Part shown: one piece after another, positions 5,672 to 28,736 of the stretch | How the letters are laid out: each line of letters opens with the position of its first letter | Numbering within the stretch: position 1 is the stretch's first letter | Assembly (NCBI GenBank): GCA_017476545.1 | Contig: JAFUZP010000031.1 | Span: 1 to 32,097 of the forward strand | Reading direction: 5' to 3' | DNA from: Alloprevotella sp. | Lineage (GTDB): Bacteria > Bacteroidota > Bacteroidia > Bacteroidales > Bacteroidaceae | Length of the DNA: 32,097 bases | Program-made: the position numbers and the translations under genes | Notes under the pieces: model-generated | Seen by the model: the letters and a program-made list of their open reading frames with translations, nothing else | Database searches by the model: none | What the model was told of the DNA's origin: nothing

Positions 5672-5775
5672 CCTCAGGCTCGCTATTTCCTAACCCTATG
5701 GTTACGGGAAACCAACTCTGCGGTTACGGCGAACTGACCCTAGGGTTACGGGCTGCTATCCCTATGGGTATTTTC
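5672..5775. repeat. 22-bp palindromic array A (4-5 units)
   Basis: Cores begin at 5691 (TAACCCTATGGTTA), 5713 (CAACTCTGCGGTTA), 5735 (TGACCCTAGGGTTA) and 5757 (TATCCCTATGGGTA), each exactly 22 bp apart. A decayed unit (CCTCAGG) may sit one period earlier, at about 5669. The 8-bp spacers (CGGGAAAC, CGGCGAAC, CGGGCTGC) differ more than the cores. The array lies between the divergent DUF4248 and beta-barrel genes, about 100 bp upstream of the latter's promoter. Apart from the array and promoters I see nothing else in 5471-5976. Confidence 0.85.
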
Positions 5776-5877
5776 CCCGTACCGGCATTCCTGACCCGTT
5801 TTTCCACAGCGAAGTGTTCCGTTTGTCCGTTCTTTTGCCCCAAAACGCTATGAAAGAAAAATTTTTGTTAATAAAAC

Positions 5878-5908
5878 TTGCAGATTTCTGTGGAAGTCCA
5901 TAGTTTTG
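5878..5908 (+). promoter_or_regulatory. Bacteroidetes-type promoter of the beta-barrel gene
   Basis: TTG (5878-5880) is followed after exactly 20 bp by TAGTTTTG (5901-5908), an ideal Bacteroidetes promoter. It implies a leader of about 60 nt, with an AT-rich segment just before the ATG at 5977. Confidence 0.8.
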
Positions 5909-5976
5909 CAGCGTCAGAGAGATAATTTTACGGGTGGGTTGTTCCCTCCCAACGTTTAACTAAAACTAATTGAACT

Positions 5977-6504
5977 ATGAAGAAATTTTTTCTGACTATG
6001 GCTTTTGCCGTTAGTGCACTGGCAATGAATGCCCAGGGTTTCGTGGGCGGCGAACTAGGTCTGTGGCGTGACTGGCACGCAAACAGCACTGATTTCACGC
6101 TGGCTCCCGAGGTTGGTTACAATCTGTCCGACAAATTTGCCATCGGTGTGGCCCTCAATTACGGTCATTTCTACAATGACGGAGTAAAGGCGAATGGCTT
6201 CGGTGTGAATCCCTATGCACGCTATTCGTTCGTGAAGCTCGGTCCTGTCAGCCTCTTTGCCGATGGCGAATTCGCTTTCAATACGTTCAAGTTTAAAGGT
6301 GGCGGCGATGCCATGAACAGCTGGGAGATTGGTATCCGTCCGGGTGCTGCCGTAACGCTGACCAAGCACCTCTCTTTCGTTACCCACGTAGGCTTCCTTG
6401 GCTACAGGGATGCTGATGATGGAATCCGCGACATAGTGGATACGGGCTTGGGCTTTAAGTTGTCGGGCTATGACCTGACGTTCGGTCTCTACTACAACTT
6501 CTGA
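5977..6504 (+). CDS. outer-membrane beta-barrel protein
   Basis: This 175-residue protein has a clear Sec signal peptide (MKKFFLTMAFAVSALAMNAQ, cleavage after Ala-Gln) and then alternating amphipathic strands separated by Gly/Asp-rich turns: GFVGGELGLWRD, FAIGVALNYGHFYNDG, NPYARYSFVKLGPVSLFADG and YDLTFGLYYNF. The C-terminal Tyr-Asn-Phe is a typical beta-barrel last-strand signature recognised by the BAM complex. The size suggests an 8-stranded barrel of the OmpX/OMP_b-brl class. These are common in Bacteroidales and usually of unknown role. The gene is monocistronic, with its own strong promoter and a classic terminator. Confidence 0.85.
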   Translation: MKKFFLTMAFAVSALAMNAQGFVGGELGLWRDWHANSTDFTLAPEVGYNLSDKFAIGVALNYGHFYNDGVKANGFGVNPYARYSFVKLGPVSLFADGEFAFNTFKFKGGGDAMNSWEIGIRPGAAVTLTKHLSFVTHVGFLGYRDADDGIRDIVDTGLGFKLSGYDLTFGLYYNF

Positions 6505-6526
6505 CCCTCCGTCTTAACTGCGAGAA

Positions 6527-6563
6527 AATCCGCGCTCCCTTCTGGGGGCGCGGATTCTTGTTT
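6527..6563 (+). terminator. terminator shared by convergent genes
   Basis: A 13-bp stem, AATCCGCGCTCCC (6527-6539) with 6544-6556 (one G-T pair), closes a TTCT loop and is followed by CTTGTTT. It lies between the convergent beta-barrel and metallophosphoesterase genes and could serve both. Confidence 0.8.
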
Positions 6564-6581
6564 GTGGGTGTCGCCTGCGGC

Positions 6582-7667
6582 TCAGGCTCCGATGGTGGCA
6601 ACAACATACTCCGAGCGCGTACCGATGCGGAACTTACCGCCCCAGATGCCTATGCCCGAGGTGACGTAGTAGCGCGTTGAACCACGCTGGTGCATTCCGA
6701 AAGCGCACTCGTAGAGGCGGTCGGTTATCCAGGATATAGGCCATACCTGCCCGTGGTGCGTGTGTCCGCTGAACTGGAAGTCCACGTCGCAGTTCTCTGC
6801 CTGCTCCAGATTGTAGGGTTGGTGGTCGAGCAGGATGATGTAACGCTCGCGGTTCACCTCGCGCATGATACGGTCGAGCGGTTTGCGGCGCAGATTAGTG
6901 CGGTCGTCGCGTCCTACGATGCAGAGGTTGCTGCCGAGATAGACGAACTCGTCGCGCAGCAAGCGGATGCCCGCATCGGCGTAGAACTGCTCGGCACGCG
7001 GTTCGGTGGCGTAGTACTCGTGGTTGCCCAGGCAGGCATACACGGGTGCGGTGAGCCTGCGGAACTCCTCGGCGCTTCCTTCCTCAAGGAGGGGACGCAC
7101 GCTCACGTCGATAATGTCGCCTGCAATAAGGATTGCGTCCGGTCGCTCGGCGTTTACCATATCGACCCAGCGCGCCAATTCGGCCCGGCGGTTATGGAAA
7201 CCGAGGTGCAGGTCGCTCATCAGGACGATGCGGAGCGGGCGTTTCAGTTCCTTACCCGTCGTCAGGGCCAGCGCTTGGCGGTGCTTGTTGCGGTAGTGGA
7301 GGTTGCCGTAGAGGAATATCCCGCCGATGAGCAGCGCGACGAAGAGCGTCCCGCGCCAGCTGTCCTGTAGGAAACTGGCAGGGACGATGCGGAGAAGCCT
7401 GCCGGCATCAAGGACAAGGAAGACCATGGCGAGGTAGAGTAGCACGATGAGGGCGGAGGTGCCCACTTCATAGAGGGCTGTGGCGTGCTGCATGGGCAGG
7501 CGTTCGGCCGCATCAATGGCGTAGAAGGCTATCAGGCATAGGAACGTGCAGAACAGCAGCGTGCAGATCGTCGCGCTGAGCCAGCCCGGCAGCGGCAGGA
7601 TGCGGTAGATGTGCCACAGGACGTAGGCGTTGCCCAGCAGGGGGACGAGGAGGAAGAGGTACATCAT
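6582..7667 (-). CDS. membrane-anchored calcineurin-like metallophosphoesterase
   Basis: This 361-residue protein has four predicted N-terminal membrane helices (about 3-23, 31-51, 66-90, 105-122), then a cytoplasm-facing or periplasmic phosphoesterase domain. The five metal-binding blocks are visible: SDLHLG (D152, H154), AGDIID (D184), GNHEYY (N215, H216), the HQP block near 282, and GHTHHGQ (H302, H304). The layout resembles YkuE/YaeI-type enzymes, some of which act on lipid-linked phosphates; the substrate here cannot be told. It is last in the tsaB-to-rseP operon, 10 bp after rseP, which favours an envelope-related role. Two adjacent ATGs (7667, 7664) are possible starts. Confidence 0.88.
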   Translation of the reverse strand: MMYLFLLVPLLGNAYVLWHIYRILPLPGWLSATICTLLFCTFLCLIAFYAIDAAERLPMQHATALYEVGTSALIVLLYLAMVFLVLDAGRLLRIVPASFLQDSWRGTLFVALLIGGIFLYGNLHYRNKHRQALALTTGKELKRPLRIVLMSDLHLGFHNRRAELARWVDMVNAERPDAILIAGDIIDVSVRPLLEEGSAEEFRRLTAPVYACLGNHEYYATEPRAEQFYADAGIRLLRDEFVYLGSNLCIVGRDDRTNLRRKPLDRIMREVNRERYIILLDHQPYNLEQAENCDVDFQFSGHTHHGQVWPISWITDRLYECAFGMHQRGSTRYYVTSGIGIWGGKFRIGTRSEYVVATIGA

Positions 7668-7677
7668 GGCGGGGTGG

Positions 7678-9120
7678 TCAGAACACGAAGCGCATGAAGT
7701 CGTTGAAGATGGCGTAGGCCATGAGCAGGATGAGCAGTGTCATGCCGACCTGCTCCGCGCGTTCCATGAACTTGTCGCTGGGCTTACGGCGCAGGATGAC
7801 TTCGCAAAGGAGGAAGAAGGCGTGGCCGCCGTCAAGCGCGGGAATCGGGAGAATGTTCATAAAGGCGAGCATCAGCGAGATGAAGGCCGTCATTTCCCAG
7901 AAGCGGTCCCACTGCCAAGTGGCGGGGAACAGGGAGCCTATGGCACCGAAACTCCCGACACTCTTCGCCCCGTCGCGTGTGAAAAGGTACTTCAAGTCAT
8001 CCACGTAGCCGCACAGCACCTTCCATCCGTGGCTGATGCCCGCCGGGAAACTTTCGAAGAAGCCGTAGCGTACGGTTTTCTTTTCGTAGCGGGTGAAAGG
8101 ATGGTTCCACATGACACCGAGACGGAAGTCGGCATCCAGTGTGCCGCGAAGCGTGTCCACCTCGCCGGAGGTGCGGCAGACGGCAAGCGTTACCTGTCGC
8201 AGGAGCAGGGAATCGGCCGCCGTTGCATGGCTGCGTGGCGAGGTACAGCTGCCCAGCAGGGCAGGGCTGCTTTCTTCCGGGACGCTCTTGGCGGCCAGGA
8301 TGTCGCCGATGCGGGCGAGCTCATCGGTGAACTCGTTCCACGTAGCTATGGGCTTGCCGTTGAATCCCACGATGCGGTCGCCGGCCTGGATACCGAGTCC
8401 GTCGGCTGGCGACCCCGCCATGACGCTGTCCACTACGCTGGGGGCGAGTGCGAGCATGAAGGGTGGCTGCTCTTTCATCATCTCCAACATATTCAGTTCC
8501 CCGGGGAGCGGAATCTTTACCTCATGACCGGCGCGGAGCACGGTCACCTCGCGGGCTTCGCTGATGGCGCGGTAAACATCGCCTATGCTCTGGGTGTCGT
8601 CGAAGCGGGTGAAGGCTACGCGCTCCGTCCGCAGGGGGATGTCGCCGTCACGGAAGCCCAGTTGCTGCGCGCGCTCGTTGTACTTGAGCCCCTCCGTCAT
8701 GCGGTCGATGGGGACGTAGGTGTCTCCCCAAACGAATAGTACCATTGCATAAATGAACAGGGCAAGGATAAAATTCACAAAGACACCGGCTAGCATCACG
8801 ATAAGGCGCTGCCAGGCGGGCTTGGCGCGGAACTCCCACGGCTGTACGGGTTGCTCCAGTTGCTTCTTGTCCATGCTTTCGTCAATCATGCCCGCAATCT
8901 TGACGTAACCGCCCAGGGGGAGCCACCCCAGCGTGTACTGGGTGTCGCTCTTCTTGGGCTTCCATTTGAGGAGGCTGAACCAAGGGTCAAAGAAAAGGCA
9001 GAACTTCTCCACGCGGATTTTGAACAGGCGTGCGGCGAGAAAATGGCCGCCTTCGTGGAGTACGATGAGGATGCTAAAACAGAGTATCAGTTGGAGTGCG
9101 CGAATCAGAAATACTTCCAT
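7678..9120 (-). CDS. rseP: RIP metalloprotease RseP (site-2 protease, M50)
   Basis: This 480-residue inner-membrane zinc protease cleaves transmembrane substrates such as anti-sigma factors and signal-peptide remnants. The first helix carries HEGGH (H22, E23, H26), the zinc site of family M50. The conserved GWLPLGGYVKIAGM block follows. A PDZ segment (SVMAGSPADGLGIQAGDRIV) lies near residues 230-250, and the C-terminal helix has NILPIPALDGGH with the third metal ligand. It is about 30 residues longer than E. coli RseP, mostly from a low-conservation insert between the PDZ region and the last helices (about 275-320). It follows dxr by 45 bp, the common bacterial dxr-rseP order. Confidence 0.95.
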   Translation of the reverse strand: MEVFLIRALQLILCFSILIVLHEGGHFLAARLFKIRVEKFCLFFDPWFSLLKWKPKKSDTQYTLGWLPLGGYVKIAGMIDESMDKKQLEQPVQPWEFRAKPAWQRLIVMLAGVFVNFILALFIYAMVLFVWGDTYVPIDRMTEGLKYNERAQQLGFRDGDIPLRTERVAFTRFDDTQSIGDVYRAISEAREVTVLRAGHEVKIPLPGELNMLEMMKEQPPFMLALAPSVVDSVMAGSPADGLGIQAGDRIVGFNGKPIATWNEFTDELARIGDILAAKSVPEESSPALLGSCTSPRSHATAADSLLLRQVTLAVCRTSGEVDTLRGTLDADFRLGVMWNHPFTRYEKKTVRYGFFESFPAGISHGWKVLCGYVDDLKYLFTRDGAKSVGSFGAIGSLFPATWQWDRFWEMTAFISLMLAFMNILPIPALDGGHAFFLLCEVILRRKPSDKFMERAEQVGMTLLILLMAYAIFNDFMRFVF

Positions 9121-9165
9121 TGGTGCGTAGTTGTCGTTTTGGCGTTTAGTGAATGGGTATCAGTG

Positions 9166-10326
9166 TTATTTTTTCAGGCTGCCGGTGAGACGTGCAGCTA
9201 CGAGGCGGGCCTCCCTATTGATGGCGGGGTAGTCGTCCAGTGTGGGGGCGGGGACGAATGGCACGCGTGCCAGCGTTTCTTCAATAATGCGCGGGATGTC
9301 CATGAAGCCGATGCCGCCTTCCCTGAAGCGGAAGTTGGCTATTTCGTTCGCCGCGTTGAGGACGCATGGCGCAGACCCGCCGCGCGCTATCGCTTCGTAG
9401 GCAAGGCGCAGACATGGGAAGCGCGACGTGTCGGGCTGCTCGAAGTGGAGCGCACCTAGGCTGAAAAGGTCGAGCCGCGCCCCCGGAAGGGGTAGGCGGG
9501 CTGGATAGGAGAGGGCGTACTGGATGGGCAGGTGCATATCGGGCGTGCCAAGCTGCGCAATGACGGCACCGTCCTCAAACTGCACGGCAGAATGGATGAC
9601 GCTTTCAGGGTGGATGACGACTTCAATAGCCTGCGCGGGCAGTCCGAAAAGCCACTTGGCTTCAATCAACTCAAAGCCTTTGTTCATCATGGTGGCCGAG
9701 TCGATGGTGATTTTCGCCCCCATCGTCCAGTTCGGGTGTCGTAGGGCTTGCTCGGCGGTCACGCCTTGCAGTTCCTGCACGGTGCAGTTGCGGAACGGTC
9801 CGCCCGAGGCGGTGAGCAGTATCTTCTCGATGCGGTTGTGCTGTTCGCCGTTCAACGACTGGAAGATGGCGGAGTGCTCGCTGTCCACCGGCAGGATAGG
9901 GCAGCGGTTCTCTATGGCCAGACGCATGATAGCTTCGCCCGCGACGACTAGTGTCTCCTTGTTGGCGAGCGCAACGGCCTTCCCTGCTTTCAGCGCGTGG
10001 ACGGTGGGGGGCAGTCCGGCGAAGCCCACCATCGCGGTGAGTACCGTATCAATAGGTGCTGCTTCTACGACTTCACAGAGTGCCTGCGCGCCGGAATAAA
10101 CTTTAATGGGGAGGTCGGACAGCGCATCGCGCACCAAGTCGTATTTATCCTCGTTGGCAATGACAATGGTGTCGGGGTTGAACTCGCGTGCCTGCCGGAT
10201 GAGCAGTTCGGCGTTGGAGCCGGCCGTCAGCGTGTGCGCCTCGAACTTGTCCGGGTGTTGGCGGATGATGTCGAGCGTCTGTGTGCCGATGGAGCCGGTT
10301 GAGCCGAGTATGCAAATTCTTCTCAT
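9166..10326 (-). CDS. dxr: 1-deoxy-D-xylulose 5-phosphate reductoisomerase
   Basis: This 386-residue cytoplasmic enzyme converts DXP to 2-C-methyl-D-erythritol 4-phosphate with NADPH, the committed step of the MEP isoprenoid pathway and the target of fosmidomycin. Visible motifs are the NADPH-binding GSTGSIG (residues 8-14), LANKETLVVAGE (120-131), the metal-binding PVDSEHSAIFQ (starting 147), ASGGPFR and MGAKITIDSATMMNKG. Its ATG overlaps the rimM stop by 4 bp (ATGA), implying translational coupling. A second MEP enzyme, ispE, is in the same window. Confidence 0.96.
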   Translation of the reverse strand: MRRICILGSTGSIGTQTLDIIRQHPDKFEAHTLTAGSNAELLIRQAREFNPDTIVIANEDKYDLVRDALSDLPIKVYSGAQALCEVVEAAPIDTVLTAMVGFAGLPPTVHALKAGKAVALANKETLVVAGEAIMRLAIENRCPILPVDSEHSAIFQSLNGEQHNRIEKILLTASGGPFRNCTVQELQGVTAEQALRHPNWTMGAKITIDSATMMNKGFELIEAKWLFGLPAQAIEVVIHPESVIHSAVQFEDGAVIAQLGTPDMHLPIQYALSYPARLPLPGARLDLFSLGALHFEQPDTSRFPCLRLAYEAIARGGSAPCVLNAANEIANFRFREGGIGFMDIPRIIEETLARVPFVPAPTLDDYPAINREARLVAARLTGSLKK

Positions 10327-10856
10327 GGGGTATTCAGTTCTAAAAGCCCGTTGGGTAGTTGCAGCTGTAGCGTGCGCATTTTCAGGTCGAAGCTGAGGAG
10401 AAAGTCATCGTGGTAGGGAATGATGGCTTCCGTACCGTCCGGACGTTGCAGGAACAGCAACACGTTAGCCGTACTGTCGTTCACGTTGGTGATGGTGCCT
10501 ATGTCCGTACCGTTTTCGTCCTGCACGCGGAATCCTTTCAGAGCTTGCAGGGAGGGCAGTCCCTCGTCTTCGCCCTCGGGGACGCAGGCGTAGGGGTAAT
10601 ACGCCTCGGCCCCCACGAGCCGTTTGGCGGCAGTTTCCGTATCGCAACCCTCCAGTTTCAGGATGACTGTCGCGCCGCCCTTGAAGCGGTACTCCTCCCA
10701 GAAGAAGGGCACGAATATGCCGTCCAGCTTTAGTGCCACGTATTCCGCGCTTCCCCTGTCTATGATGTCGTCGGTGTAGCGCAGCTCCACTTCGCCCCGG
10801 ATGCCCCGGGTCTTTGCGATGTAGCCTATCTGGAAAACTTCTTCTTCGCGTATCAC
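10323..10856 (-). CDS. rimM: 16S rRNA processing protein RimM
   Basis: This 177-residue assembly factor helps mature the head of the 30S subunit by binding ribosomal protein S19. The N-terminal RimM barrel shows FQIGYIAKTRGIRGEVELR, typical of the family; the C-terminal PRC-barrel half includes LKGFRVQDENGTDIGTITNV and IIPYHDDFLLSFD. Length is normal. It starts 35 bp after murA and overlaps dxr by 4 bp. Placement beside murA, rather than with rpsP-trmD-rplS as in proteobacteria, is a Bacteroidetes habit. Confidence 0.94.
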   Translation of the reverse strand: MIREEEVFQIGYIAKTRGIRGEVELRYTDDIIDRGSAEYVALKLDGIFVPFFWEEYRFKGGATVILKLEGCDTETAAKRLVGAEAYYPYACVPEGEDEGLPSLQALKGFRVQDENGTDIGTITNVNDSTANVLLFLQRPDGTEAIIPYHDDFLLSFDLKMRTLQLQLPNGLLELNTP

Positions 10857-10891
10857 GTCTTGCCGTTCGGTGTGTGGGGGATGACTTTGCC

Positions 10892-12729: not shown

Positions 12730-13455
12730 TTACTTGGTGTATTCGTTTTCAGTGCGTGACAAATTTTCCAGCGGGTTGCGGGGTGCTCCTGCCTGATAGG
12801 CTTTCAGGTAGAACGGCTCGAAGTAGGCCGTATCCTCAACCGTCCCTTGCAAGAAGCGTCGTTCGGCCAACGGAAACATATTCCGCGCCCTCGGGACGGC
12901 TCCGTCCGCGAACCGCGCATTTGGGTGGCGGATGATATCGTGGCATTTCGCTGCGCCATTGCCGAGGAACAGGACGGGCTGTTCGTCCAGTAGCTTGCGG
13001 TAGGTTCCTTCATCTACGATGTCGGCCTGTGCAGGGCGTACCTCCCGTAAGGCGCGGTCGTACACGGCGGCATACACTTCCATGCGGCGCGCATCAATCA
13101 TGGGGCAGAGCAGAGTGCCTTCCTCCACCTCCTCGCCGAGTAGTGCCGGCACGCAGATGAGCTGGAGTGTCGGCACGCTGATGAGTGGCAGGGAGCGGCC
13201 GTAGCATACTCCCTTGGCCTCGCTCACGCCGATGCGCAGTCCCGTGTAGGACCCCGGGCCGCTGCTGACGGCTACGGCATCAAGCGGGATGGCATGGCTG
13301 TCGGCAAAACTCACGGCATCGCGTACAAACGGAGCGAGAACCTCTGCGTGCCGGTGCCCTTCGCGGCTCTCGTCCTCGTAGAGCAGGGCACCGTCTTGCG
13401 AGAGTGCCACGGAGCAGATGTCCGTAGAGGTTTCTATGTGGAGAATGCAGGCCAT
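12730..13455 (-). CDS. tsaB: tRNA t6A37 biosynthesis protein TsaB
   Basis: This 241-residue protein is the TsaD partner required for threonylcarbamoyl-adenosine at position 37 of ANN-decoding tRNAs. The N-terminal ASKHA fold is evident from ILHIETSTDICSVALSQDG, HRHAEVLAPFV and SSGPGSYTGLRIGVSEAKG. TsaB lacks the full metal-binding motif of TsaD, as expected here. It is the first gene of the seven-gene operon and has a good promoter only about 24 bp upstream, so its leader is very short. Confidence 0.94.
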   Translation of the reverse strand: MACILHIETSTDICSVALSQDGALLYEDESREGHRHAEVLAPFVRDAVSFADSHAIPLDAVAVSSGPGSYTGLRIGVSEAKGVCYGRSLPLISVPTLQLICVPALLGEEVEEGTLLCPMIDARRMEVYAAVYDRALREVRPAQADIVDEGTYRKLLDEQPVLFLGNGAAKCHDIIRHPNARFADGAVPRARNMFPLAERRFLQGTVEDTAYFEPFYLKAYQAGAPRNPLENLSRTENEYTK

Positions 13456-13591: not shown

Positions 13592-13724
13592 TGGATTATC
13601 CAGGCCGGGTTACGGACACCCGCCTTGGGGGGAGTGCGAATTACCCCTATGGTTACGAGGAATTATCCCTAGGGTTACGAAGGATTATCCCTGGGGTTAC
13701 GAATTACTGGCGCATGGGTTATTT
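13592..13724. repeat. 22-bp palindromic array B (4 clear, up to 6 units)
   Basis: Clear cores begin at 13642 (TACCCCTATGGTTA), 13664 (TATCCCTAGGGTTA), 13686 (TATCCCTGGGGTTA) and 13708 (TGGCGCATGGGTTA), at exactly 22 bp. Decayed units sit one and two periods earlier: CCTTGGGGGG near 13623, and GGGTTACGG at 13607 preceded by GGATTATCC. Spacers are CGAGGAAT, CGAAGGAT and CGAATTAC. It lies upstream of the tsaB operon promoter and downstream of the OmpA-like lipoprotein gene. Confidence 0.85.
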
Positions 13725-13989: not shown

Positions 13990-14688
13990 TTATTCGCCGG
14001 CCTGCGCTTTGGCGTTCTGGATCATTTGTTCGCTCGGCATTACGTAAACCTCCACACGGCGGTTGGCCTCAAGCGTAGGCTGCGTGGTATCTTCGCCCAT
14101 GCCCTTGACCTCTTTCAGCTGTGCGTAGCTGATGCCGTTCTGAGCCATGAAGTTGCTGACGGCGGATGCACGCTGCTCGGAGAGCAACTGGTTCTTTTGG
14201 CGGCTCTGCTCGGCGGTGGAGTTCTTCCAGCCCTGGCTGTCAGTGAAACCGTACACATAGAGATCCATATCTGCCTCTAGGTTTTTTGCAAACGTAGCCA
14301 AGTCGCTCTTGGCCTGTACGCTTAGCTCATCCTTTCCTGTGGCGAAGAGTAGGCCGGAGGGGAACGTCACTTTGACGTACGTAAGACCCGTTTCCTCGTT
14401 CTTAATCAGTTCGGCTTCGGCGTTTGCCAGTTCGGCTGCTTTCTTGGCCTTGTCCATTTTGTTGCCGATGAGTACGCCTGCACCGCCACCAACTACGGCG
14501 CCAATGCTGGCACCGATGGCGGCACCCTTGCCCCCACCTGCAATGGCACCGATGATGGCGCCGATAGCTGCACCGCCGGTACCGACGGCTGTACCCATCT
14601 TAGCCTTGTTGCTGGCGTTCTGAATCGTGCTGCATCCGCTCAGGATGAGCAGTGCGCTGAGAAATAGCGCAGTGACTTTTGTTTTCAT
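13990..14688 (-). CDS. OmpA-family lipoprotein with glycine-zipper domain
   Basis: This 232-residue outer-membrane lipoprotein starts with a lipoprotein signal peptide (lipobox LSGC, lipidated Cys19). Residues about 33-75 form a glycine-zipper hairpin (GTGGAAIGAIIGAIAGGGKG and a second similar stretch), which may insert into or span the membrane. After a charged helix comes an OmpA-like peptidoglycan-binding domain (about 105-225), shown by YVYGFTDSQGW, NQLLSEQRASAVSNFMAQNG and ANRRVEVYV. The likely role is anchoring the outer membrane to the peptidoglycan, as for the YiaD/Pal group. It is monocistronic, with a near-perfect promoter, consistent with high expression. Confidence 0.92.
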   Translation of the reverse strand: MKTKVTALFLSALLILSGCSTIQNASNKAKMGTAVGTGGAAIGAIIGAIAGGGKGAAIGASIGAVVGGGAGVLIGNKMDKAKKAAELANAEAELIKNEETGLTYVKVTFPSGLLFATGKDELSVQAKSDLATFAKNLEADMDLYVYGFTDSQGWKNSTAEQSRQKNQLLSEQRASAVSNFMAQNGISYAQLKEVKGMGEDTTQPTLEANRRVEVYVMPSEQMIQNAKAQAGE

Positions 14689-20403: not shown

Positions 20404-21336
20404 ATGATACACCTGCCTGACGGTCTTCCCGCTCTGCAAGCACTTCGTGCAGAGGGTACGGTCTGCGCCTCTTACCTCCTACAGCAGGCTGCCGTTGCCG
20501 GAGTGCCCGGTGATGGTAGTCTGCGTGTGCTTTTCTTGAACCTGATGCCGGAGAAGGAACAGGCAGAGCTGGACGTTTGTCGTGTGCTGGCCGCCAGTAA
20601 GCTGGATGTACAGCTCATTCCCGTCCGTTTTCGCGGGCAGACCTATAAGACTACGCCGCAGGCGCACATGGAAAGTTTCTACTTGGAGGTCGAGGCTGTG
20701 CAGGGAGCCTTCTTTGACGGGCTCATTATCAACGGTGCGCCATTGGAACACCTGCCCTACGCCGAGGTGCGCTATTGGGATGCTTTCTGCCGCCTGATGG
20801 ATTGGGCGGGAAACCACGTCCGCAGTACGTTCCACGTCTGTTGGGGGGCGCAGGCCGGGCTCTACTACCATTACGGCATTCCCAAGTTTCCCCTCCGCGA
20901 GAAGCGCTTTGGGGTGTACGTACACCGCGTACTATGCCCGGATAGCCCACTCTTACGCGGTCTTCCGGCGGACTTTCCCGTACCTGTGAGCCGCCATACA
21001 GAGGTGCGTGCCATCGATTTTCAAAATACTCCGGTGCGTATCGTTGCTACTGATGCGCGGGGCGGGGTGGGGTTGGCCGTGGATGAAGCCGCCCGCCGCG
21101 TTTTTTCTATCGGCCATCTGGAGTATGAGCCCCTCCGTCTTGCCCGCGAGTATCAGCGTGACGTGGCCTTGGGGCGGCCCATTGCCCTGCCGGGGAACTA
21201 CTATGAAGGCGACAATCCTGCCGCCCCGGTACGCCATGTGTGGCGTACGGCGGCGGAGTTGGTGTATGGCAACTGGCTGCGCTATTACGTCGCACCCGGC
21301 AATTTTTTCCAAGACCCTGCGGTTACTAAAAATTAA
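20404..21336 (+). CDS. metA: homoserine O-acyltransferase MetA, predicted acetyl-specific
   Basis: This 310-residue enzyme activates L-homoserine for methionine synthesis. The catalytic Cys is in HVCWGAQAGL (C146), and the His/Glu pair is in SIGHLEYEP (H238, E240). Family members are usually labelled O-succinyltransferases. The residue after GAPL is Glu (GAPLEHLPYAEVRYW, E115), equivalent to Glu111 of Bacillus cereus MetA, which favours acetyl-CoA; E. coli has Gly there. O-acetylhomoserine is therefore the predicted product. The ATG lies 6 bp after the M13 peptidase stop. The final codons and the stop lie inside array C, whose first two units form the terminator. Confidence 0.95.
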   Translation: MIHLPDGLPALQALRAEGTVCASYLLQQAAVAGVPGDGSLRVLFLNLMPEKEQAELDVCRVLAASKLDVQLIPVRFRGQTYKTTPQAHMESFYLEVEAVQGAFFDGLIINGAPLEHLPYAEVRYWDAFCRLMDWAGNHVRSTFHVCWGAQAGLYYHYGIPKFPLREKRFGVYVHRVLCPDSPLLRGLPADFPVPVSRHTEVRAIDFQNTPVRIVATDARGGVGLAVDEAARRVFSIGHLEYEPLRLAREYQRDVALGRPIALPGNYYEGDNPAAPVRHVWRTAAELVYGNWLRYYVAPGNFFQDPAVTKN

Positions 21337-21391
21337 CCGCAGGGTTATTTTTCCGTAACCCTAGGGTCGGTTCGCCGTACCCCTAGGGTTA
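21312..21391. repeat. 22-bp palindromic array C (4 units)
   Basis: Cores begin at 21312 (AGACCCTGCGGTTA), 21334 (TAACCGCAGGGTTA), 21356 (TAACCCTAGGGTCG) and 21378 (TACCCCTAGGGTTA), each 22 bp apart. The second unit is the reverse complement of the first in its 12 inner bases, so they can pair with each other. The array overlaps the last eight codons of metA and lies between convergent genes. Confidence 0.85.
21314..21352 (+). terminator. metA terminator formed by two array units
   Basis: ACCCTGCGGTTA (21314-21325) pairs perfectly over 12 bp with TAACCGCAGGGT (21334-21345) across an 8-nt loop, followed by TATTTTT. The metA stop codon (21334-21336) is the start of the right arm. Confidence 0.8.
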
Positions 21392-21542: not shown

Positions 21543-22373
21543 CTATTGTAGCAGCTGGGCTTGGTGGACGAAGCAGTCGGGGAAGATGTCCTTGGCATTG
21601 GACTGGCGATGGCGGAAGAGCCCGTACACGCAGCTGCCACTGCCGGACATGGCGGCGTAGGTGGCTCCCATGTCGTAGAGCGTCTCCTTAATGGCGGCGA
21701 TGCGGGGGTAGCGCGGGAAGACACTGGACTCGAAGTCGTTTGTGACGCTGTTGCGCCATTCCTCTACGGGGCGTTCAACTGCCTCGCGCAGGCTTTGGGC
21801 GGGTTGTTTGGGCGTGATGCCGGCATAGGCTTGGGCGGTGGATACGGAGTCGGCAGGCTTGACGAGCACGAGAATCCAACCGCGCAGACTGAGGGGGATG
21901 GGAGTGAGTATGTCGCCAATGCCAGTGGCATAAGCAGGTTTCCCTTGGATGAAAAAGGGGCAGTCGGCACCGAGGTGTGCGGCGCGCCGTTCCATTTCGG
22001 TGTTGTCCATGCCGAGGCAGAACATATCGTTGAGCAGGCGCAGCATGGCGGCGGCATCGCTGCTCCCACCGCCGAGCCCCGCACCGGAGGGGATGCGCTT
22101 GAAGAGGTATATGTCCAGCGGGGGTATCTGCGGGAAGTCGGGGCGCAGCTCCTCAAGGGCGCGTATGACGAGGTTGTCCGCCGGTGAGCCCTCCAGCGCG
22201 TTGCCGGCCAGCTGTAGCAGGTAGGGGGCTGCGGAGTTGCGCAGCTCACGTACCTCCAGGTTGTCCGTTAGGGGAATTGGGTAGAAGACGGTCTCGATGT
22301 TGTGGTAGCCGTCGGAGCGTCGCTCCGTGACGTGCAGGCCGAGGTTAATCTTGGCGCAGGGGGTGGTAAGCAT
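21543..22373 (-). CDS. ispE: 4-diphosphocytidyl-2-C-methyl-D-erythritol kinase
   Basis: This 276-residue GHMP kinase phosphorylates CDP-ME in the MEP isoprenoid pathway. The N-terminus MLTTPCAKINLGLHVTERRS has the catalytic Lys, DGYHNIETVF follows, and the ATP-binding glycine loop PSGAGLGGGSSDAA is at residues 95-108. AHLGADCPFFIQGKPAYATG carries the catalytic Asp. The C-terminal SGSGSCVYGLF is the third GHMP motif. Length is normal. It sits 94 bp downstream of yggS with a candidate promoter in the gap, so it may be transcribed separately. Confidence 0.95.
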   Translation of the reverse strand: MLTTPCAKINLGLHVTERRSDGYHNIETVFYPIPLTDNLEVRELRNSAAPYLLQLAGNALEGSPADNLVIRALEELRPDFPQIPPLDIYLFKRIPSGAGLGGGSSDAAAMLRLLNDMFCLGMDNTEMERRAAHLGADCPFFIQGKPAYATGIGDILTPIPLSLRGWILVLVKPADSVSTAQAYAGITPKQPAQSLREAVERPVEEWRNSVTNDFESSVFPRYPRIAAIKETLYDMGATYAAMSGSGSCVYGLFRHRQSNAKDIFPDCFVHQAQLLQ

Positions 22374-22397: not shown

Positions 22398-22405
22398 CGA
22401 AGGTA
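22398..22405 (-). promoter_or_regulatory. candidate -7 element of ispE
   Basis: TACCTTCG on the minus strand lies 25 bp before the ispE ATG and differs by one base from TAnnTTTG; no -33 TTG is seen. A lone copy of the repeat core (CCTATGGGTACG, about 22440) lies just upstream. Confidence 0.35.
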
Positions 22406-22467
22406 GGATGTTTTTCGGAAGGGCCTACGAAAAGTTTTTCCTATGGGTACGTGGCCGTTTCCGTGTG

Positions 22468-23142: not shown

Positions 23143-23151
23143 CCTTTGCGC

Positions 23152-23631
23152 TTATTCTTCCGCCGTTTCTTCCACCTTCCCGCTTCCGGCAGTTGCGCCT
23201 AGGGGGTGATGGAAAACATCCATGATGGGGGTCTCGGCGAGGCTTGTTATCTGGTAGTCCATCATAGTCCCTTTCAGGCCGGCATCAAGGCGTTTGACGG
23301 CATCGCGTAAGTCGGCAGCTTGTACGAGGAGAGCCTGCGACACGCGCTTTTCCTTGCCACTCTTCTCGTCAAGCGTTATGATGGATATTTTCGCTTTGAA
23401 GTAGCGGTCTGCCGCATCGTCCGTACTTTCAAACAACTCAACGTAACGCGCTTTCTTGATGTCGCTCACCTCGAAGATGCCGCTGATGTAGTGGGAAAGC
23501 TCTTCTATCGTACGCTTCTCTGCCTCCGTGAAGCTGAGTGCGTCAATGAGATAAGGCTCGGAAACTTTCTTGAGTGCACCGTCTTCCATTGTCTTCTCGT
23601 ACTTGACGGTGCATTGATACCATTCGCTCAT
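23152..23631 (-). CDS. DUF4494 family protein
   Basis: This 159-residue protein starts MSEWYQCTVKYEKTMEDGAL and contains EPYLIDALSFTEAEKRTIEE, matching the Bacteroidetes family DUF4494 of unknown function. It is predicted soluble, with an alpha/beta mix and an acidic tail (GKVEETAEE). It is separated by 9 bp from the downstream yggS-type gene, an arrangement that suggests a shared operon. No catalytic motif is visible. Confidence 0.88.
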   Translation of the reverse strand: MSEWYQCTVKYEKTMEDGALKKVSEPYLIDALSFTEAEKRTIEELSHYISGIFEVSDIKKARYVELFESTDDAADRYFKAKISIITLDEKSGKEKRVSQALLVQAADLRDAVKRLDAGLKGTMMDYQITSLAETPIMDVFHHPLGATAGSGKVEETAEE

Positions 23632-23670
23632 AGTCTTTATACGTGTGTAGTTATATTATATGCGTATAGA

Positions 23671-23690
23671 AAAGGTGGCAGGCGCCTGCC
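23671..23690 (-). terminator. weak hairpin after the GH25 gene
   Basis: The perfect palindrome GGCAGGCGCCTGCC (23677-23690) abuts the GH25 stop; in the minus direction it is followed by ACCTTTTC. It is a possible weak terminator or attenuator before DUF4494. Confidence 0.35.
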
Positions 23691-24521
23691 TTACATCTGC
23701 AATTGCCGCAGGTCAAAGCCCGGCATGAGGCAGCTGCGGTCCACGTCGCCCCGTATGCCGCTCAGCCTACCGCTGCAACTATATTGCCACATGATGTAGG
23801 TGCGTCCGTCCTTCAGCACGGGTTCGGCGGGACTATAGCAGGCTATCATCCAATGGTAGTCCCGGAACATATTCAGGAAATGCTTGTTGTAGAAGTTCTG
23901 GTACGTGTAGAGCAGCGGTTTCTTACCGTAGTAGCGCGTGACGGCCTCTACGAACTGTCGCAGGTTACTCACGAAGGCGGCCTCCGAACCGCTGAACTTC
24001 TCGATGTCAATCAATGGGACGAGGTCCTGTTCCTCGGGCTTGATGACTGCCTTCATCAGCTCCAATTGCTGCCGCCAGTCCACGTTAGGGCGGTAGAAGT
24101 GGTAGCTGCCTACGCTGATTCCCGCCCTACGTGCTCCTTCAAGGTTGCGGCGGTAGTAGTCATCGCGGAGATTGTTGCCCTCAGTGGCCTTGATATAAGC
24201 GTAGGAGATATTCTCATTGCGCGCCAGTGCGGCCCAGTCAATGGAGTATTGGTAGTGCGACACGTCAATGCCTTGGCGGTAGTTGGCGTTGATGCGCCCT
24301 TTTGGCGTTTGCTGTTGCTGGACCTGGGGCTTGTGCATATCCTGCTGCGGTGCGACGATGCGCTCAGCGGTGGCTTTCTGCTGCGGCGCATCGGGTTCGG
24401 GGGGAAGGGTTCCGGCGGCGTAGCTCTCGTGTTTCTTCTTTGGATCCTTACGGCCATAGGAGGGTAGGACTGTAAGCAGAGCGAGTATGATGGCGGTGAA
24501 GGTGATCGGTGATAGCTTCAT
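23691..24521 (-). CDS. GH25 family lysozyme (muramidase), exported
   Basis: This 276-residue protein has a signal peptide or N-terminal anchor (residues 1-23), a Pro/Gln-rich low-complexity linker (about 28-80) and a GH25 domain (about 83-276). GIDVSHYQ (D86), YIKATEGNN, GSYHFYRP and the catalytic PLIDIEK (D172, E174) are all present, as is MWQYSCSGRLSGIRGDVDRS near the end. GH25 enzymes hydrolyse the MurNAc-GlcNAc bond. In this chromosomal setting, cell-wall remodelling is the likely role, but interbacterial use cannot be excluded. A -7 box (TATCTTTG, 24548-24555) lies 27 bp upstream. Confidence 0.93.
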   Translation of the reverse strand: MKLSPITFTAIILALLTVLPSYGRKDPKKKHESYAAGTLPPEPDAPQQKATAERIVAPQQDMHKPQVQQQQTPKGRINANYRQGIDVSHYQYSIDWAALARNENISYAYIKATEGNNLRDDYYRRNLEGARRAGISVGSYHFYRPNVDWRQQLELMKAVIKPEEQDLVPLIDIEKFSGSEAAFVSNLRQFVEAVTRYYGKKPLLYTYQNFYNKHFLNMFRDYHWMIACYSPAEPVLKDGRTYIMWQYSCSGRLSGIRGDVDRSCLMPGFDLRQLQM

Positions 24522-24547
24522 CTTTTACTGTTCGGTGTTTCAAGTTG

Positions 24548-24555
24548 CAAAGATA
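24548..24555 (-). promoter_or_regulatory. candidate -7 box of the GH25 gene
   Basis: TATCTTTG on the minus strand matches TAnnTTTG. No TTG is found at the expected -33 site, which is instead covered by a small CCGCT/AGCGG palindrome. Confidence 0.5.
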
Positions 24556-24589
24556 GTGCTTTCGCCGCTAAGCGGTGGCACGGGGAGCG

Positions 24590-25423
24590 TTAATTAGTGT
24601 TGCGTTGTGGCACTTCCTCCCTCGTGTTGTTTTCCATCAACTGGAAGTCCTTTTTGCGTAGCTTGAAGGAGTTGGTGAGGTATTTGTCGCGTACAATTTG
24701 ATTTTCCGCCAGTTCTTCAGGCGTTCCGGCAAAGAGAATTTTTCCTTCAAATAGCAGGTAGGCGCGGTCTGTGATGCAGAGCGTTTCCTCAACGTTGTGG
24801 TCGGTGATAAGGATGCCGATGTGGCGTTTTTTTAGCTGCCACACCACTTTTTGGATGTCCTCTACTGCGATGGGGTCCACCCCTGCGAAAGGTTCGTCCA
24901 ACATGATGAACTTGGGGTCTATGGCGAGGCATCGGGCAATCTCCGTGCGCCTCCGTTCGCCGCCGCTCAGAGCCGTGCCCTTGTTCTTGCGCACTTTACC
25001 GAGATTGAACTCTGCGATGAGGCTTTCCATCTTATCCTTGCGGTAACTGTAGGGGCGGCCTGTCATTTCGAGAACGGACATGATGTTGTCCTCAACGGAC
25101 ATGTCACGGAACACGCTGGGCTCTTGCGCGAGATAGCCGATGCCGTACTTTGCGCGTTTATAGACGGGAAAGTCCGTAATTTCATGGCTGTTGAGGAATA
25201 TTTTTCCCCCATTCGGCACAACGAGGCCTGTGGTCATATAGAAAGAGGTCGTCTTGCCGGCACCGTTCGGGCCGAGCAATCCGACAATTTCGCCCTGTCG
25301 CACGTCAAAACTTACGCCATTGACAACCGTACGGCGGCCGTATTTTTTTATAAGTCCCTCGGTGCGCAGCACCATCTGGTCGTTCTCTGCCAACCGGGCC
25401 AGGTCTTTCTGAATGTCGTCCAT
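24590..25423 (-). CDS. lptB: LPS export ABC transporter ATP-binding protein LptB
   Basis: This cytoplasmic ATPase powers LPS extraction from the inner membrane with LptF/G. Walker A GPNGAGKTT is at 51-59, signature LSGGERRRTEIARCLA follows, and Walker B is FIMLDEPFAGVDP. GYLAQEPSVFRDMSVEDNIM is the LptB-type Q-loop region. I chose ATG 25423 (277 residues) over 25471, because a -7-like box lies inside the longer frame; M17 of the chosen frame (MVLRTEGL) is another option closer to the usual ~241. The C-terminal extension (about 35 residues, KLRKKDFQLMENNTREE) exceeds the E. coli protein. lptF/G are not in the window. Confidence 0.93.
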   Translation of the reverse strand: MDDIQKDLARLAENDQMVLRTEGLIKKYGRRTVVNGVSFDVRQGEIVGLLGPNGAGKTTSFYMTTGLVVPNGGKIFLNSHEITDFPVYKRAKYGIGYLAQEPSVFRDMSVEDNIMSVLEMTGRPYSYRKDKMESLIAEFNLGKVRKNKGTALSGGERRRTEIARCLAIDPKFIMLDEPFAGVDPIAVEDIQKVVWQLKKRHIGILITDHNVEETLCITDRAYLLFEGKILFAGTPEELAENQIVRDKYLTNSFKLRKKDFQLMENNTREEVPQRNTN

Positions 25424-25447
25424 GTGTCTGTAGCTCTTTGCTGGGTG

Positions 25448-25455
25448 CGAAGTTA
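25448..25455 (-). promoter_or_regulatory. candidate -7 element of lptB
   Basis: TAACTTCG on the minus strand lies 25 bp before the chosen lptB ATG, within the longer reading frame. It shares GTAACTTCGC with the region before proS. Confidence 0.4.
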
Positions 25456-25495
25456 CGAAAAATCCCCGCACCGGGAGAGCGTGTGGCGGGGATTT
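25455..25495 (-). terminator. terminator of the acyl-CoA synthetase gene
   Basis: AAATCCCCGC (25460-25469) pairs perfectly with GCGGGGATTT (25486-25495). Read on the minus strand the stem ends in a T5 run. It is 21 bp past the stop of the upstream gene and overlaps the lptB promoter region. Confidence 0.75.
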
Positions 25496-25515
25496 GTTCG
25501 CATTTTAGGGAAGTT

Positions 25516-27189
25516 TTAGATTTCCGCGTCGGCGTAGAGGAAACGCTTGATGCTCTTCTTCGGCGTTTTCTCGAATTCCTCGGGCCAGATTCGGATACCG
25601 GCTAGTTGTTCGTAGTTGTTCACCATGAGGTTCAGGTCTTTGCGGTTCTGTTCCATTTGTGCCTCGATCATGGCTTGGTCCAGGCCGTCTTTTTCCGCTT
25701 GCTCGGTGTCGGGATAGACGAGGGCGTAGAGACGCTCGTTTTTCTGGATAACGACGCATTCCGCCACATATGGCAGGGTGTTCAGCTTCTCCTCAATTTC
25801 TTCCGGATAGATGTTCTGTCCGGAGGAACCAAGGAGCATGTTCTTGGAACGTCCACGGATGTAAAGATTGCCTTCCTCGTCCACAAGTCCGAGGTCTCCC
25901 GTGTGATACCATCCTTCAGGGTCGATTGCGGCCGCCGTTGCTTCAGGGTTTTTGTAGTATCCCAGCATGACATTTGCTCCGCGCACTAGTATCTCGCCGA
26001 CGACATTCTCGGGATCGGGGCTGTCAATACGCAGTTCCATATTCGGCACTATCTTGCCGCAGGAACCCAACTGCTGCTCTTTCCAGTCGTTGTATGTGAT
26101 GATGGGCGCACACTCCGTCGCGCCATAGCCAACTGTGTAGTTGAAGCCGATGCGGTGGAGCAGGGCATCGATGTCACGGTTGAATGCGGCGCCGCCGATT
26201 ATGATTTCATAAAAATTGCCGCCGAACGCCTCGTAGAGCTGAGTACGTATGCGTTCGCAGATCTTATCGCTGATGACAGGGAGGCGCAACAGCACCTTCA
26301 TGCTCGGTGTCTGTAGCTTCGGGAGGACGGCCTTCTTGATGATTTTCTCGATGATTAGGGGGACGGAGATGATTAGGTCGGGCTTCACTTCGCCGAACGC
26401 CTTGAAGATGATGTTCGGGCTGGGTATGCGCGTGAGGAAGTAGATGTGCATCCCGCTCATGAACTCGTAGAGTAGCTCGTAAGCCATGCCGTACATGTGG
26501 GCAAGTGGCAGGATGCTGATGACTTTCATCCCGGGCTTCAGAATGTGGCCGAGCACCTGATTGGCGAAGAACATGTTCGACCAAAGCGCGCGGTAGGGTA
26601 TAAGTACTCCTTTGGACTTTGAGGTTGTTCCGCTCGTATAGTTCAGTACGGCCAGTGCGTCCGGGTCGCTAGCAGGGCGGTAGTGTACGTGTTCTGGGCG
26701 GAAGAACTTCGGGTATTTTTCGCCGAAGAACCGGTTGAGGTTTTCGCGGGCCTCTGTGAGGCGTTCCGAACGGGAGACGAGCAGCTCGTAGTCCTGTAGT
26801 TGGATAATACCCTCAAGTACGGGCATTTGTTCCGCGTCCAGAGTAGGCCATATCTGGTCGCCTACGAGGAGCAGGCGGGCGTCGCTGTGGTTTACGATGT
26901 CGTGTACCTGCGGAGCCTTGAACTCGTGCAGGATAGGGACGGCTACCGCGCCGTAACCCAGAATGGCGAAGAAGGCCGATGCCCAGGCCGCGCAGTTACG
27001 CCCGCATAGGGCTACTTTGTCGCCCGGCTGCAGGCCGGCATGTTCAAAGAGCAAGTGCAGTTTCTCGATTTTCCGGGCCACGTCGTGATATTGCAGGGTG
27101 ACGCCCTGATAGTCTGTCAGTGCGTCGCGGTTCCAATTGTCCCGTATGCTCTGCTCGAACATGCCTACGAAGTCTTGGTACTGGTTCAT
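25516..27189 (-). CDS. long-chain acyl-CoA synthetase / AMP-binding ligase
   Basis: This 557-residue adenylate-forming enzyme probably activates fatty acids with ATP and CoA for lipid synthesis. I chose ATG 27189 (MNQYQDFVGMFEQSIRDNW); the frame upstream is low-quality and contains the promoter. Motifs in order: LNYTSGTTSKSKGVLI (phosphate-binding loop), YGATECAPIITYNDW, GWYHTGDLGLVDEEGNLYIR and GRSKNMLLGSSGQNIYPEEI. The family is long-chain-fatty-acid–CoA ligase-like, but chain-length preference cannot be read. It is a single gene, with a candidate promoter box at 27253-27260 and a strong terminator. Confidence 0.92.
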   Translation of the reverse strand: MNQYQDFVGMFEQSIRDNWNRDALTDYQGVTLQYHDVARKIEKLHLLFEHAGLQPGDKVALCGRNCAAWASAFFAILGYGAVAVPILHEFKAPQVHDIVNHSDARLLLVGDQIWPTLDAEQMPVLEGIIQLQDYELLVSRSERLTEARENLNRFFGEKYPKFFRPEHVHYRPASDPDALAVLNYTSGTTSKSKGVLIPYRALWSNMFFANQVLGHILKPGMKVISILPLAHMYGMAYELLYEFMSGMHIYFLTRIPSPNIIFKAFGEVKPDLIISVPLIIEKIIKKAVLPKLQTPSMKVLLRLPVISDKICERIRTQLYEAFGGNFYEIIIGGAAFNRDIDALLHRIGFNYTVGYGATECAPIITYNDWKEQQLGSCGKIVPNMELRIDSPDPENVVGEILVRGANVMLGYYKNPEATAAAIDPEGWYHTGDLGLVDEEGNLYIRGRSKNMLLGSSGQNIYPEEIEEKLNTLPYVAECVVIQKNERLYALVYPDTEQAEKDGLDQAMIEAQMEQNRKDLNLMVNNYEQLAGIRIWPEEFEKTPKKSIKRFLYADAEI

Positions 27190-27252
27190 GTCTTTCTTAG
27201 TTTTCTTTGGTGGTTCTTGTGACCGAAATGGCACATTTTCCAAAATTTTGTG

Positions 27253-27260
27253 CAAAAGTA
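27253..27260 (-). promoter_or_regulatory. -7 box of the acyl-CoA synthetase gene
   Basis: TACTTTTG on the minus strand matches TAnnTTTG, 64 bp upstream of the chosen ATG. The -33 element is unclear. Its place inside the longer open frame supports the shorter start. Confidence 0.55.
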
Positions 27261-27393
27261 GGCAAAAATCCTGATAGTGTATAGTGAAACGCGAATAATG
27301 TTGCATTTTTTCTCGTCGCAGCCTTGCAGCACCCTTTTCGGAGGGGTATTCGCTGCTCTGTCCTTCCTTTTTGGCAGCTTGCCGCCTCCGCGT

Positions 27394-27424
27394 TTGGTGC
27401 ATTCGGGCGTTCTGCGTAAATTTG
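27394..27424 (+). promoter_or_regulatory. Bacteroidetes-type promoter of mltG
   Basis: TTG (27394-27396) and TAAATTTG (27417-27424) are separated by exactly 20 bp; the leader would be about 55 nt. The rest of the divergent gap 27190-27486 holds the opposing promoter and no further gene. Confidence 0.75.
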
Positions 27425-27486
27425 CACGGAAAACGGATGTGCCTGCCGCACCCTGATGTCTCACAATACAAACGAATTTGTCTCCA

Positions 27487-28506
27487 ATGCCTCACACCCG
27501 CCGCTTGCGCCGTCACCTGCTGGCGTTCTTTCTGTTTGTTATGCTCGTCGCTGTGGCGGGTTGGTTTTTCTTTTTCCCCATGACGGGTACGCCCGGCACT
27601 TGCATCTACCTCCGCCCCGGTACGGAGCAGACAGACCTGCGCGCAGCTCTTGAGACAGCAGCACGCGCACCGCAACGGGCGGCATTCCGCCTATTGGCCG
27701 ACTTGGCGCACTACAACGGGCACGAGCGTGCCGGCCGCTACCGCCTGGACGGGGTGGGTGCACTCAACTTACTTCGTAACCTGCGCAACGGGCAGCAGGA
27801 GCCGCTCCGCTTGAGCGTACCGCTCGTTTGGACTCCTATGCACCTGGCCAAGCGGTTGGGTGACCGCCTCGCAGCGGACTCTGCGGCTTTTGCCAAAGCC
27901 TTCGCCGATACGGCATTGCTTGCCGAGCTTGGCTGCACGCCAGCAGGGGTGTTCAATATTATTATCCCGGACACCTATGAACTCTACTGGACGGTGACTC
28001 CCGGCGACTTCCTGAGGCGCATGAAGCGGGAGAGTGCTGCGTTTTGGACGGAAGCGCGCCGCAGTGAGGCGGAACGTCAGGGGCTTACGCCGAACCAGGT
28101 GGTCGCGCTGGCCTCTATCGTGGAGAAGGAAACGGCCGACGGGGCGGAGAAACCGCGTATCGCGGGACTCTATCTCAACCGACTGCGCCAGGGAATCCGC
28201 TTACAAGCCGACCCCACGGTCAAATTCGCCGTCGGAGACTTCGGGTTGCGCCGTATCCTGAACTCCCACCTCAGTACTCCGTCGCCCTATAATACCTACC
28301 TCGTTTCCGGTTTGCCCCCTGCACCCATCTGTCTCCCTTCGCGCGAGAGCATCGAAGCAGTGCTTTCCGCAGAGCAACACAACTATATATATATGTGCGC
28401 GCGCGAGGACTTCAGCGGGACGCACCGTTTCGCGGAAACTTACGCCGAGCATCAGCAGAATGCCCGCCGCTACGTGGCTGCGCTCAACCAGCGGGGAATC
28501 AAATAG
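27487..28506 (+). CDS. mltG: endolytic murein transglycosylase MltG (YceG-like)
   Basis: This 339-residue protein has one N-terminal membrane anchor (about 8-32, LLAFFLFVMLVAVAGWFFFF) and a periplasmic YceG domain. It cleaves nascent glycan strands and is thought to set their length. ALASIVEKETADGAEKPRIA contains the catalytic Glu, and AGLYLNRLRQGIRLQADPTV, SPYNTYLVSGLPPAPICLPS and FAETYAEHQQNARRY are family blocks. I chose ATG 27487; the in-frame TTG at 27478 is possible but less likely. It is monocistronic, with its own promoter, and converges on glyA. Confidence 0.94.
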   Translation: MPHTRRLRRHLLAFFLFVMLVAVAGWFFFFPMTGTPGTCIYLRPGTEQTDLRAALETAARAPQRAAFRLLADLAHYNGHERAGRYRLDGVGALNLLRNLRNGQQEPLRLSVPLVWTPMHLAKRLGDRLAADSAAFAKAFADTALLAELGCTPAGVFNIIIPDTYELYWTVTPGDFLRRMKRESAAFWTEARRSEAERQGLTPNQVVALASIVEKETADGAEKPRIAGLYLNRLRQGIRLQADPTVKFAVGDFGLRRILNSHLSTPSPYNTYLVSGLPPAPICLPSRESIEAVLSAEQHNYIYMCAREDFSGTHRFAETYAEHQQNARRYVAALNQRGIK

Positions 28507-28533
28507 CGTGCAGCGTTGCGTACGCATAACAGG

Positions 28534-28583
28534 AGGGCGGGCAGACAAAACCAAGCTGAACAGCCGGCTTGTCTGCCCGTCCT
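28534..28583 (+). terminator. 15-bp hairpin downstream of mltG
   Basis: AGGGCGGGCAGACAA (28534-28548) pairs with 28569-28583 with one mismatch; the loop contains a further CAAGC/GGCTTG stem. It is 28 bp past the mltG stop with no T-run. Confidence 0.6.
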
Positions 28584-28634
28584 AAATGTATCTGTCCGCT
28601 GTTGGAAGATGCCGTCGCGGCAGACGGATATCCT

Positions 28635-28736
28635 TACCCATAGGGTTGGCGTTTCCTACCCCTGCGGTTAGTCCTTCCTATCCCTGCGGTTAGTTTCTTG
28701 TACCCCTATGGCTATTCTTCCTTAATCCTCGGGTCG
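28635..28736. repeat. 22-bp palindromic array D (5 units)
   Basis: Cores begin at 28635 (TACCCATAGGGTTG), 28657 (TACCCCTGCGGTTA), 28679 (TATCCCTGCGGTTA), 28701 (TACCCCTATGGCTA) and 28723 (AATCCTCGGGTCGG), each exactly 22 bp apart. Spacers are GCGTTTCC, GTCCTTCC, GTTTCTTG and TTCTTCCT. It lies between convergent mltG and glyA and ends about 25 bp from the glyA stop. Confidence 0.85.

Follow-up and report, generated by a model that had tools for sequence, protein, structure and literature searches.

The genome analysed here carries arrays of short palindromes, mostly three to five in a row at exact 22-bp steps, which lie between genes and are spaced more evenly along the chromosome than random placement in the same intergenic gaps would give. 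Arrays of the same design, built from other motifs, are present in other Bacteroidales and were absent from the other bacteria sampled, and in relatives they are associated with genes for HU-HIG proteins (Pfam PF18291). On balance, the arrays probably serve as landing pads for an HU-type protein that binds DNA sequence-specifically, most likely a HU-HIG protein, with a chromosome-organising role.

Architecture of the arrays

The window is the whole 32,097-base stretch that was analysed, bases 1-32097 of contig C20 in an assembly of 1,980,113 bases and 46 contigs that is about 80% complete. Its proteins and relatives suggest that this genome belongs to the Bacteroidales; among the matches listed, the nearest named MetA comes from an Alloprevotella and shares 49% identity. 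The arrays consist of successive 14-bp palindromes (consensus TAACCCTAGGGTTA, with a variable centre), with 8 degenerate bases between neighbouring units. The four 22-bp arrays of the original prediction are all present in the window (Table 1), and the starts of the first three are as predicted, as are the intervals of 7951 and 7670 bp between them; the fourth array, thought to start at 28657, begins one unit earlier, and the third interval is 7323 bp from start to start, not 7345 bp. All four had been placed between genes, which is correct except that unit 1 of Array 3 overlaps the final 25 bp of ORF 20404-21336. The window contains 11 copies of CCCTNNGGTTA, compared with 0.10 expected from shuffles. 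By eye, a possible degenerate fifth unit follows Array 4 at 28723-28736. The window also contains, at 1814-2085, another tandem array with a 23-bp period and 11.8 copies. To the eye, its arms (GGTCA...TGACC) are similar to the 23-bp arrays that precede the HU-HIG genes of L368 and L082.

Table 1. Palindromic arrays of the window and the genes on either side of them.
Array	Position	Strand	Structure	Setting
Array 1	5691..5770	no strand	four 14-bp palindromic units, 22-bp steps	divergent gap, ORFs 2197-4920 (-) and 5977-6504 (+)
Array 2	13642..13699	no strand	three units, 22-bp steps	co-directional gap, ORFs 12730-13455 (-; presumably tsaB-like from its sequence features) and 13990-14688 (-; presumably lipoprotein-like, likewise)
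Array 3	21312..21391	no strand	four units, 22-bp steps	convergent gap, ORF 20404-21336 (presumably metA-like) and next ORF 21543-22373 (-)
Array 4	28635..28714	no strand	four units, 22-bp steps	convergent, ORF 27478-28506 (+) and ORF 28762-30042 (-; presumably glyA-like)

Across 751,116 bases (ten contigs or parts of contigs, 38% of the genome), 68 arrays were identified, and the same search of the reversed sequence of these 751 kb returned none. Four units are present in 48 of the 68 arrays, three in 8, five in 7, two in 2, six in 2 and eight in 1; the 63 arrays with three to five palindromes at 22 bp match the architecture of an HU-HIG-associated array (21-23-bp steps), a class defined in this analysis from relatives. 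In this count, as in those for the congeners G215 and G210 below, arrays were extended at the expected step only, and a better guide to the step is a multi-step scan of 423 kb of this genome, in which it was 22 bp in every case with 21, 22, 23 and 44 bp permitted, together with the analogous scan in G215 and G210. Assembly-wide, the core pattern CCCTNNGGNTA matches 594 times, versus 40 times when read backwards (one palindrome can score on both strands), the paired pattern matches 248 times versus 0 backwards, and a pattern with incorrect spacing has no match. Scaling 68 arrays in 751 kb to 1.98 Mb, it is estimated that one motif occupies about 180 intergenic places in this species. Minor families built from other palindromes at 22- or 23-bp steps were also observed in the same genome (G000 C3:8475, C7:370 and C3:33635, with further arrays at C11:34818, C6:30 and C8:56780).

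Spacing along the chromosome

The 58 intervals between arrays in the 751 kb have a mean of 10.9 kb, a median of 9.5 kb and a coefficient of variation (CV) of 0.512. When arrays were placed at random in the same intergenic gaps, the CV averaged 0.86-0.87 (sd 0.09-0.10), and not one of 5000 simulations was as even as the observed spacing under any of three null models, in which gaps were weighted equally, by length or by square root. Short and long intervals are both depleted: 1 of 58 is below 3 kb (8.1-11.1 expected), 4 are below 5 kb (18.8-19.7 expected) and 2 exceed 20 kb (7.8-7.9 expected). Array spacing is even, neither random nor strictly periodic. The near-even spacing suggested at first by four arrays holds over these 58 intervals, and the random placement against which it was to be judged is rejected for the 38% of the genome covered (CV 0.51 versus 0.86); strict periodicity does not survive, the CV being 0.51 and the intervals ranging from 2.2 to 33.7 kb.

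In 18 of the 20 intervals longer than 13 kb (contig ends included) no hidden weak array was found. In the other two, a four-unit score exceeded the control maximum of 1.2, at C9 124494 and C11 17884; these weak arrays lie within two of the three longest intervals, that of C9 inside the longest of all (about 33.6 kb), and were excluded from the count, to which their addition could shrink some intervals.

Other motifs, same design in relatives

Of the 58 genomes of the genus, five besides the present one match the paired pattern, each only once or twice, and it matched in 39 of 201 genomes of the family; two other genera possess 22-bp units that are similar but not the same. Among the relatives, some genomes (e.g. 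G165) have stretches whose noncoding tandem repeats are dominated by a period of 21-23, and in others (e.g. G142 and G223) such repeats are few or absent. When 80 loci were divided by record title, the 26 from Bacteroidales (439 kb, one locus from Marinilabilia) yielded 12 noncoding arrays with lags of 22-24, spread over 9 loci, and the 54 from other bacteria (778 kb) yielded none.

The congener G215 has a different palindrome, CT[AG]CAnnnnnTG[CT]AG, in 30 arrays within 257 kb, 27 of which consist of three units at a 21-bp step; its multi-step scan returned steps of 21 and 42 only, and its spacing is also even (CV 0.44 versus 0.86, P=0.0002). In G210, a near relative of G215, all 18 arrays found in 220 kb have three units, with steps mostly of 21 and also of 42, 105, 126 and 9; the evenness of their spacing is not significant (CV 0.64, P=0.076), and there are no intervals below 3 kb where 3.0 were expected (P=0.028). 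The proteins of G215 and G210 have a median identity of 90.7% over 100 reciprocal best pairs. Among 76 conserved neighbouring gene pairs, an array is present in both species at 10, in G215 only at 5 (one of which, pair 40, is a two-unit array) and in G210 only at 0. Alignments of 14 of these 15 gaps (pair 31 was omitted on account of its length) contain several common arrays that are recognisable despite diverged flanks, and in pairs 26, 47, 52 and 75 the flanks are still alignable. Arrays upstream of tsaB occur in G021, which belongs to another genus, and in some congeners, where the motifs are different; this position was rejected as proof of common descent because long gaps may carry arrays by chance.

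HU-HIG genes and their upstream arrays

HU-HIG proteins were reportedly described by Burroughs and colleagues in 2017, and the long members of the family consist of an HU/IHF-like DNA-bending domain followed by a winged helix. The first part of a profile of seven long HU-HIG proteins resembles HU and IHF structures, with E-values down to 1.6e-8, and the second part weakly matches the winged helices of eS25 and CodY (E-values of 1.6e-4 to 3e-3). In the accessible parts of the literature searched, no published binding sites for HU-HIG proteins and no published description of such arrays were found.

When the neighbours of 33 arrays from other families and genomes were inspected, HU-HIG genes lay downstream of three, as recognised by a Pfam scan of seven flanking proteins picked by eye. 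In 30 HU-HIG loci from as many genomes of the genus (that of the window among them), nine lag-22 arrays were found. Seven of these lie a short way upstream of the HU-HIG gene and are composed of a motif that is its own or a close variant. In a larger set, arrays with lags of 20-24 lie upstream of 29 of 69 HU-HIG loci and 32 of 710 control genes (Fisher P=2e-17), a comparison in which the 69 loci are best-scoring loci and chosen stretches, contain orthologous pairs and are not independent, since they include six of the seven loci already seen to have an upstream array in the 30-locus scan. No array with a lag of 15-19 or 25-29 was found upstream of the same 69 loci. By frame length, which was used for 50 of the 69, upstream arrays accompany 18 of 25 HU-HIG open frames of at least 200 aa and 0 of 25 shorter frames; among canonical short HU loci, 2 of 12 have one. 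Two of the 18 positives (L327 and L348) look poorly palindromic, and the upstream arrays are, by eye, mostly four-unit. Left out of the 69 were L082, L151 and L190 (the source of the lead), duplicates, and the contig-edge or misplaced loci L283, L285, L288, L293, L303, L308, L314, L328, L339, L340 and L349, of which L285, L328 and L339 do carry arrays.

Of 27 HU-HIG arrays, 12 have a TAnnTTTG box, the consensus of the Bacteroidetes -7 box, at their 5' edge, in 10 cases at a distance of 11-20 bp; the density of the box further upstream, in largely coding sequence, is 0.007 per 60 bp. The frequent location of the array just downstream of a promoter box suggests autoregulation of HU-HIG genes. 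At L350 and L332, CCCCTAAGGGG-like units come after the HU-HIG gene's own upstream array, and may represent cross-control between HU-HIG proteins. The genome G043 (L151 and L273) has 30 HU-HIG matches, compared with 1-12 in the other 57 genomes of the genus. In the window's genome, a short HU-HIG gene (L305, 1501-1932) has three AGGAAG..CTTCCT palindromes directly on its 3' side, which by eye follow 22-bp steps.

In G114, one motif is common to an HU-HIG promoter and to dispersed arrays. With the core profile of the 21-bp array of gene L312, three further arrays were detected within 200 kb of G114 and one in nine other genomes (2.0 Mb), and a different profile of the same array has 6 matches in G114 (both strands counted) and 2 in G210. 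Similarly, the core profile of L286 of G215 finds four arrays in its own 277 kb and two in 1.9 Mb of other genomes. The link between L304 and the main motif of G215 is mixed and at most suggestive. Under the dispersed-array profile of G215, the L304 promoter has a four-unit score of 16.8, compared with a reversed background of at most -8.0 and with -24 to -75 for 12 other HU-HIG promoters; this score rests on one unit (17.2, the others being 2.1, 0.4 and -2.9), and single-unit background reaches 17.1. In reverse scans with the L304 promoter motif, the first profile had 2 matches in G215, 5 in G210 and 4 in G114, and the core profile had 0 in G215 and 6 in G210, so that no G215 array rose above chance. 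Most of the 19 promoter arrays scanned showed no excess in their own genomes. In the window's assembly, about 80% complete, no full-length gene for an HU-HIG protein with a winged helix was found, and the best score of this genome's motif profile on 35 HU-HIG promoters was -4.7; for these two reasons, the link to a protein is made by analogy in this genome.

A putative chromosome-organising role

HU-HIG proteins are the likely binders because in Bacteroidales relatives many HU-HIG genes are preceded by arrays of this architecture, and the landing-pad reading is favoured by the HU/IHF and winged-helix profile, by palindromes that would each suit one dimer, and by the two-turn steps. Each array may be a pad for several dimers, one per palindrome, and since successive units are separated by two turns of the helix, the three or four dimers would be on one face of the DNA. 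Lined up in this way, they could bend or wrap approximately 60-90 bp, and arrays about 10 kb apart are as would be expected if they anchored or separated chromosome domains. Binding, wrapping and a function in domains are predictions from sequence, and a HU-HIG identity is presumed for the protein that would occupy the arrays of this genome. That arrays accompany HU-HIG genes in relatives lends indirect support to the nucleoid-protein role put forward in the original prediction; the support is partial, since no cognate was found here and the spacing is even, not periodic.

A wider and considerably more tentative proposal is that Bacteroidales possess a fast-changing, sequence-specific chromatin system, in which each member of a set of HU-HIG proteins has its own phased multi-dimer array, one such array per species has spread as domain anchors at even intervals, and protein and motif change together between species. 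If this is true, a large and little-studied family of HU-like proteins would have its DNA targets, evenly spaced multi-site landing pads would mark the chromosome, bacteria would provide a case of an organising protein and its sites co-changing quickly between related species, and what sets the size of bacterial chromosome domains would become testable.

Noc sites and the matS sites of MatP are short palindromes scattered over a chromosome, each kind recognised by its own chromosome-organising protein, as is proposed for the present arrays. They are single sites, unlike the three- or four-unit arrays described here, with their two-turn steps, even placement and motifs that differ between species.

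Gene context and transcriptional regulation

Alternatively, though with rather low probability, a global transcription regulator, perhaps the HU-HIG protein itself, uses the dispersed arrays as its operators, and their spacing follows the spread of the regulated units. The promoter boxes beside HU-HIG arrays (12 of 27) are in keeping with such a function, as is the preference of G215 arrays for divergent gaps (11 of 20) over convergent gaps (2 of 21). In the window's genome, however, convergent gaps hold arrays as often as divergent gaps (15 of 54 and 14 of 49), co-directional gaps do so in 32 of 137 cases, and the orientation bias expected of a promoter or terminator element is absent; these gene calls were made with our own simple script, which missed ORF 27478-28506 (+) and consequently counted Array 4 as co-directional. 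By the same calls, no array of the 68 is centred in a gene, and in four cases the overlap with a gene exceeds 10 bp. Flanks with a TAnnTTTG box directed towards the array number 0 of 136 in this genome, 0 of 60 in G215 and 1 of 36 in G210, and a search for this genome's arrays next to a CTTTG box gave one match, probably due to chance. Furthermore, random choice among the same gaps fails to reproduce the observed evenness. The original view that the arrays are neither promoters of one class nor simple terminators fits this genome, where the orientations are used alike and none of the 136 flanks has the box.

Sequence constraint and mobility

Somewhat less probable again is a reading of the arrays as palindromic repeats of a mobile or selfish kind, kept apart by insertion immunity or avoidance of nearby copies. 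A few-kilobase exclusion zone would suit target immunity, which is known from Mu and Tn7, and the arrays of some relatives look recently copied: in G165 and G114, stretches of approximately 90-117 bp that cover arrays are 86-94% identical between loci, and on contig C9 of G210 (L258-L268) some arrays have an inserted conserved module and form composite elements. The window's genome argues otherwise. From the third base outwards, its 136 array flanks have no more than 0.23 bits at any position, and spacers are about as similar within an array (0.535) as between arrays (0.523), which points to maintained binding sites more than to recent copying. The nearly fixed number of units and the arrays that G215 and G210 have in common at 10 of 15 orthologous gaps, the flanks of some having diverged, also speak against mobility. 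As a separate observation, the starts of contigs C1 and C8 (L119 1-240 and L131 1-240) have approximately 140 bp in common, followed by similar but non-identical arrays.

REP/BIME elements are likewise interspersed intergenic palindromes of high copy number. They consist of longer units that form hairpins, the host genome often encoding a REP transposase, and they are not known to have the nearly fixed array size, exact two-turn phasing and even spacing of the present arrays. A likeness within the Bacteroidales is the BrickBuilt MITE of Porphyromonas gingivalis, which is reported as scattered intergenic tandem repeats of 23 nt in 19 copies, with repeat numbers from 1 to 22.8, leader and tail segments and inverted-repeat ends (PMC4596501). 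The arrays resemble BrickBuilt in being scattered intergenic tandem repeats and differ in their nearly fixed unit number and unconserved flanks. A MITE of this type was rejected as a reading of the arrays, the 136 flanks having no conserved leader or tail and no terminal inverted repeats.

It is very improbable that the arrays are RNA elements or terminators: neighbouring palindromic units can in principle pair, and the outer units of some G215 arrays are inverted, but several arrays of the window's genome have all listed units in one orientation, the step corresponds to two turns of DNA, and convergent, divergent and co-directional gaps are used alike.
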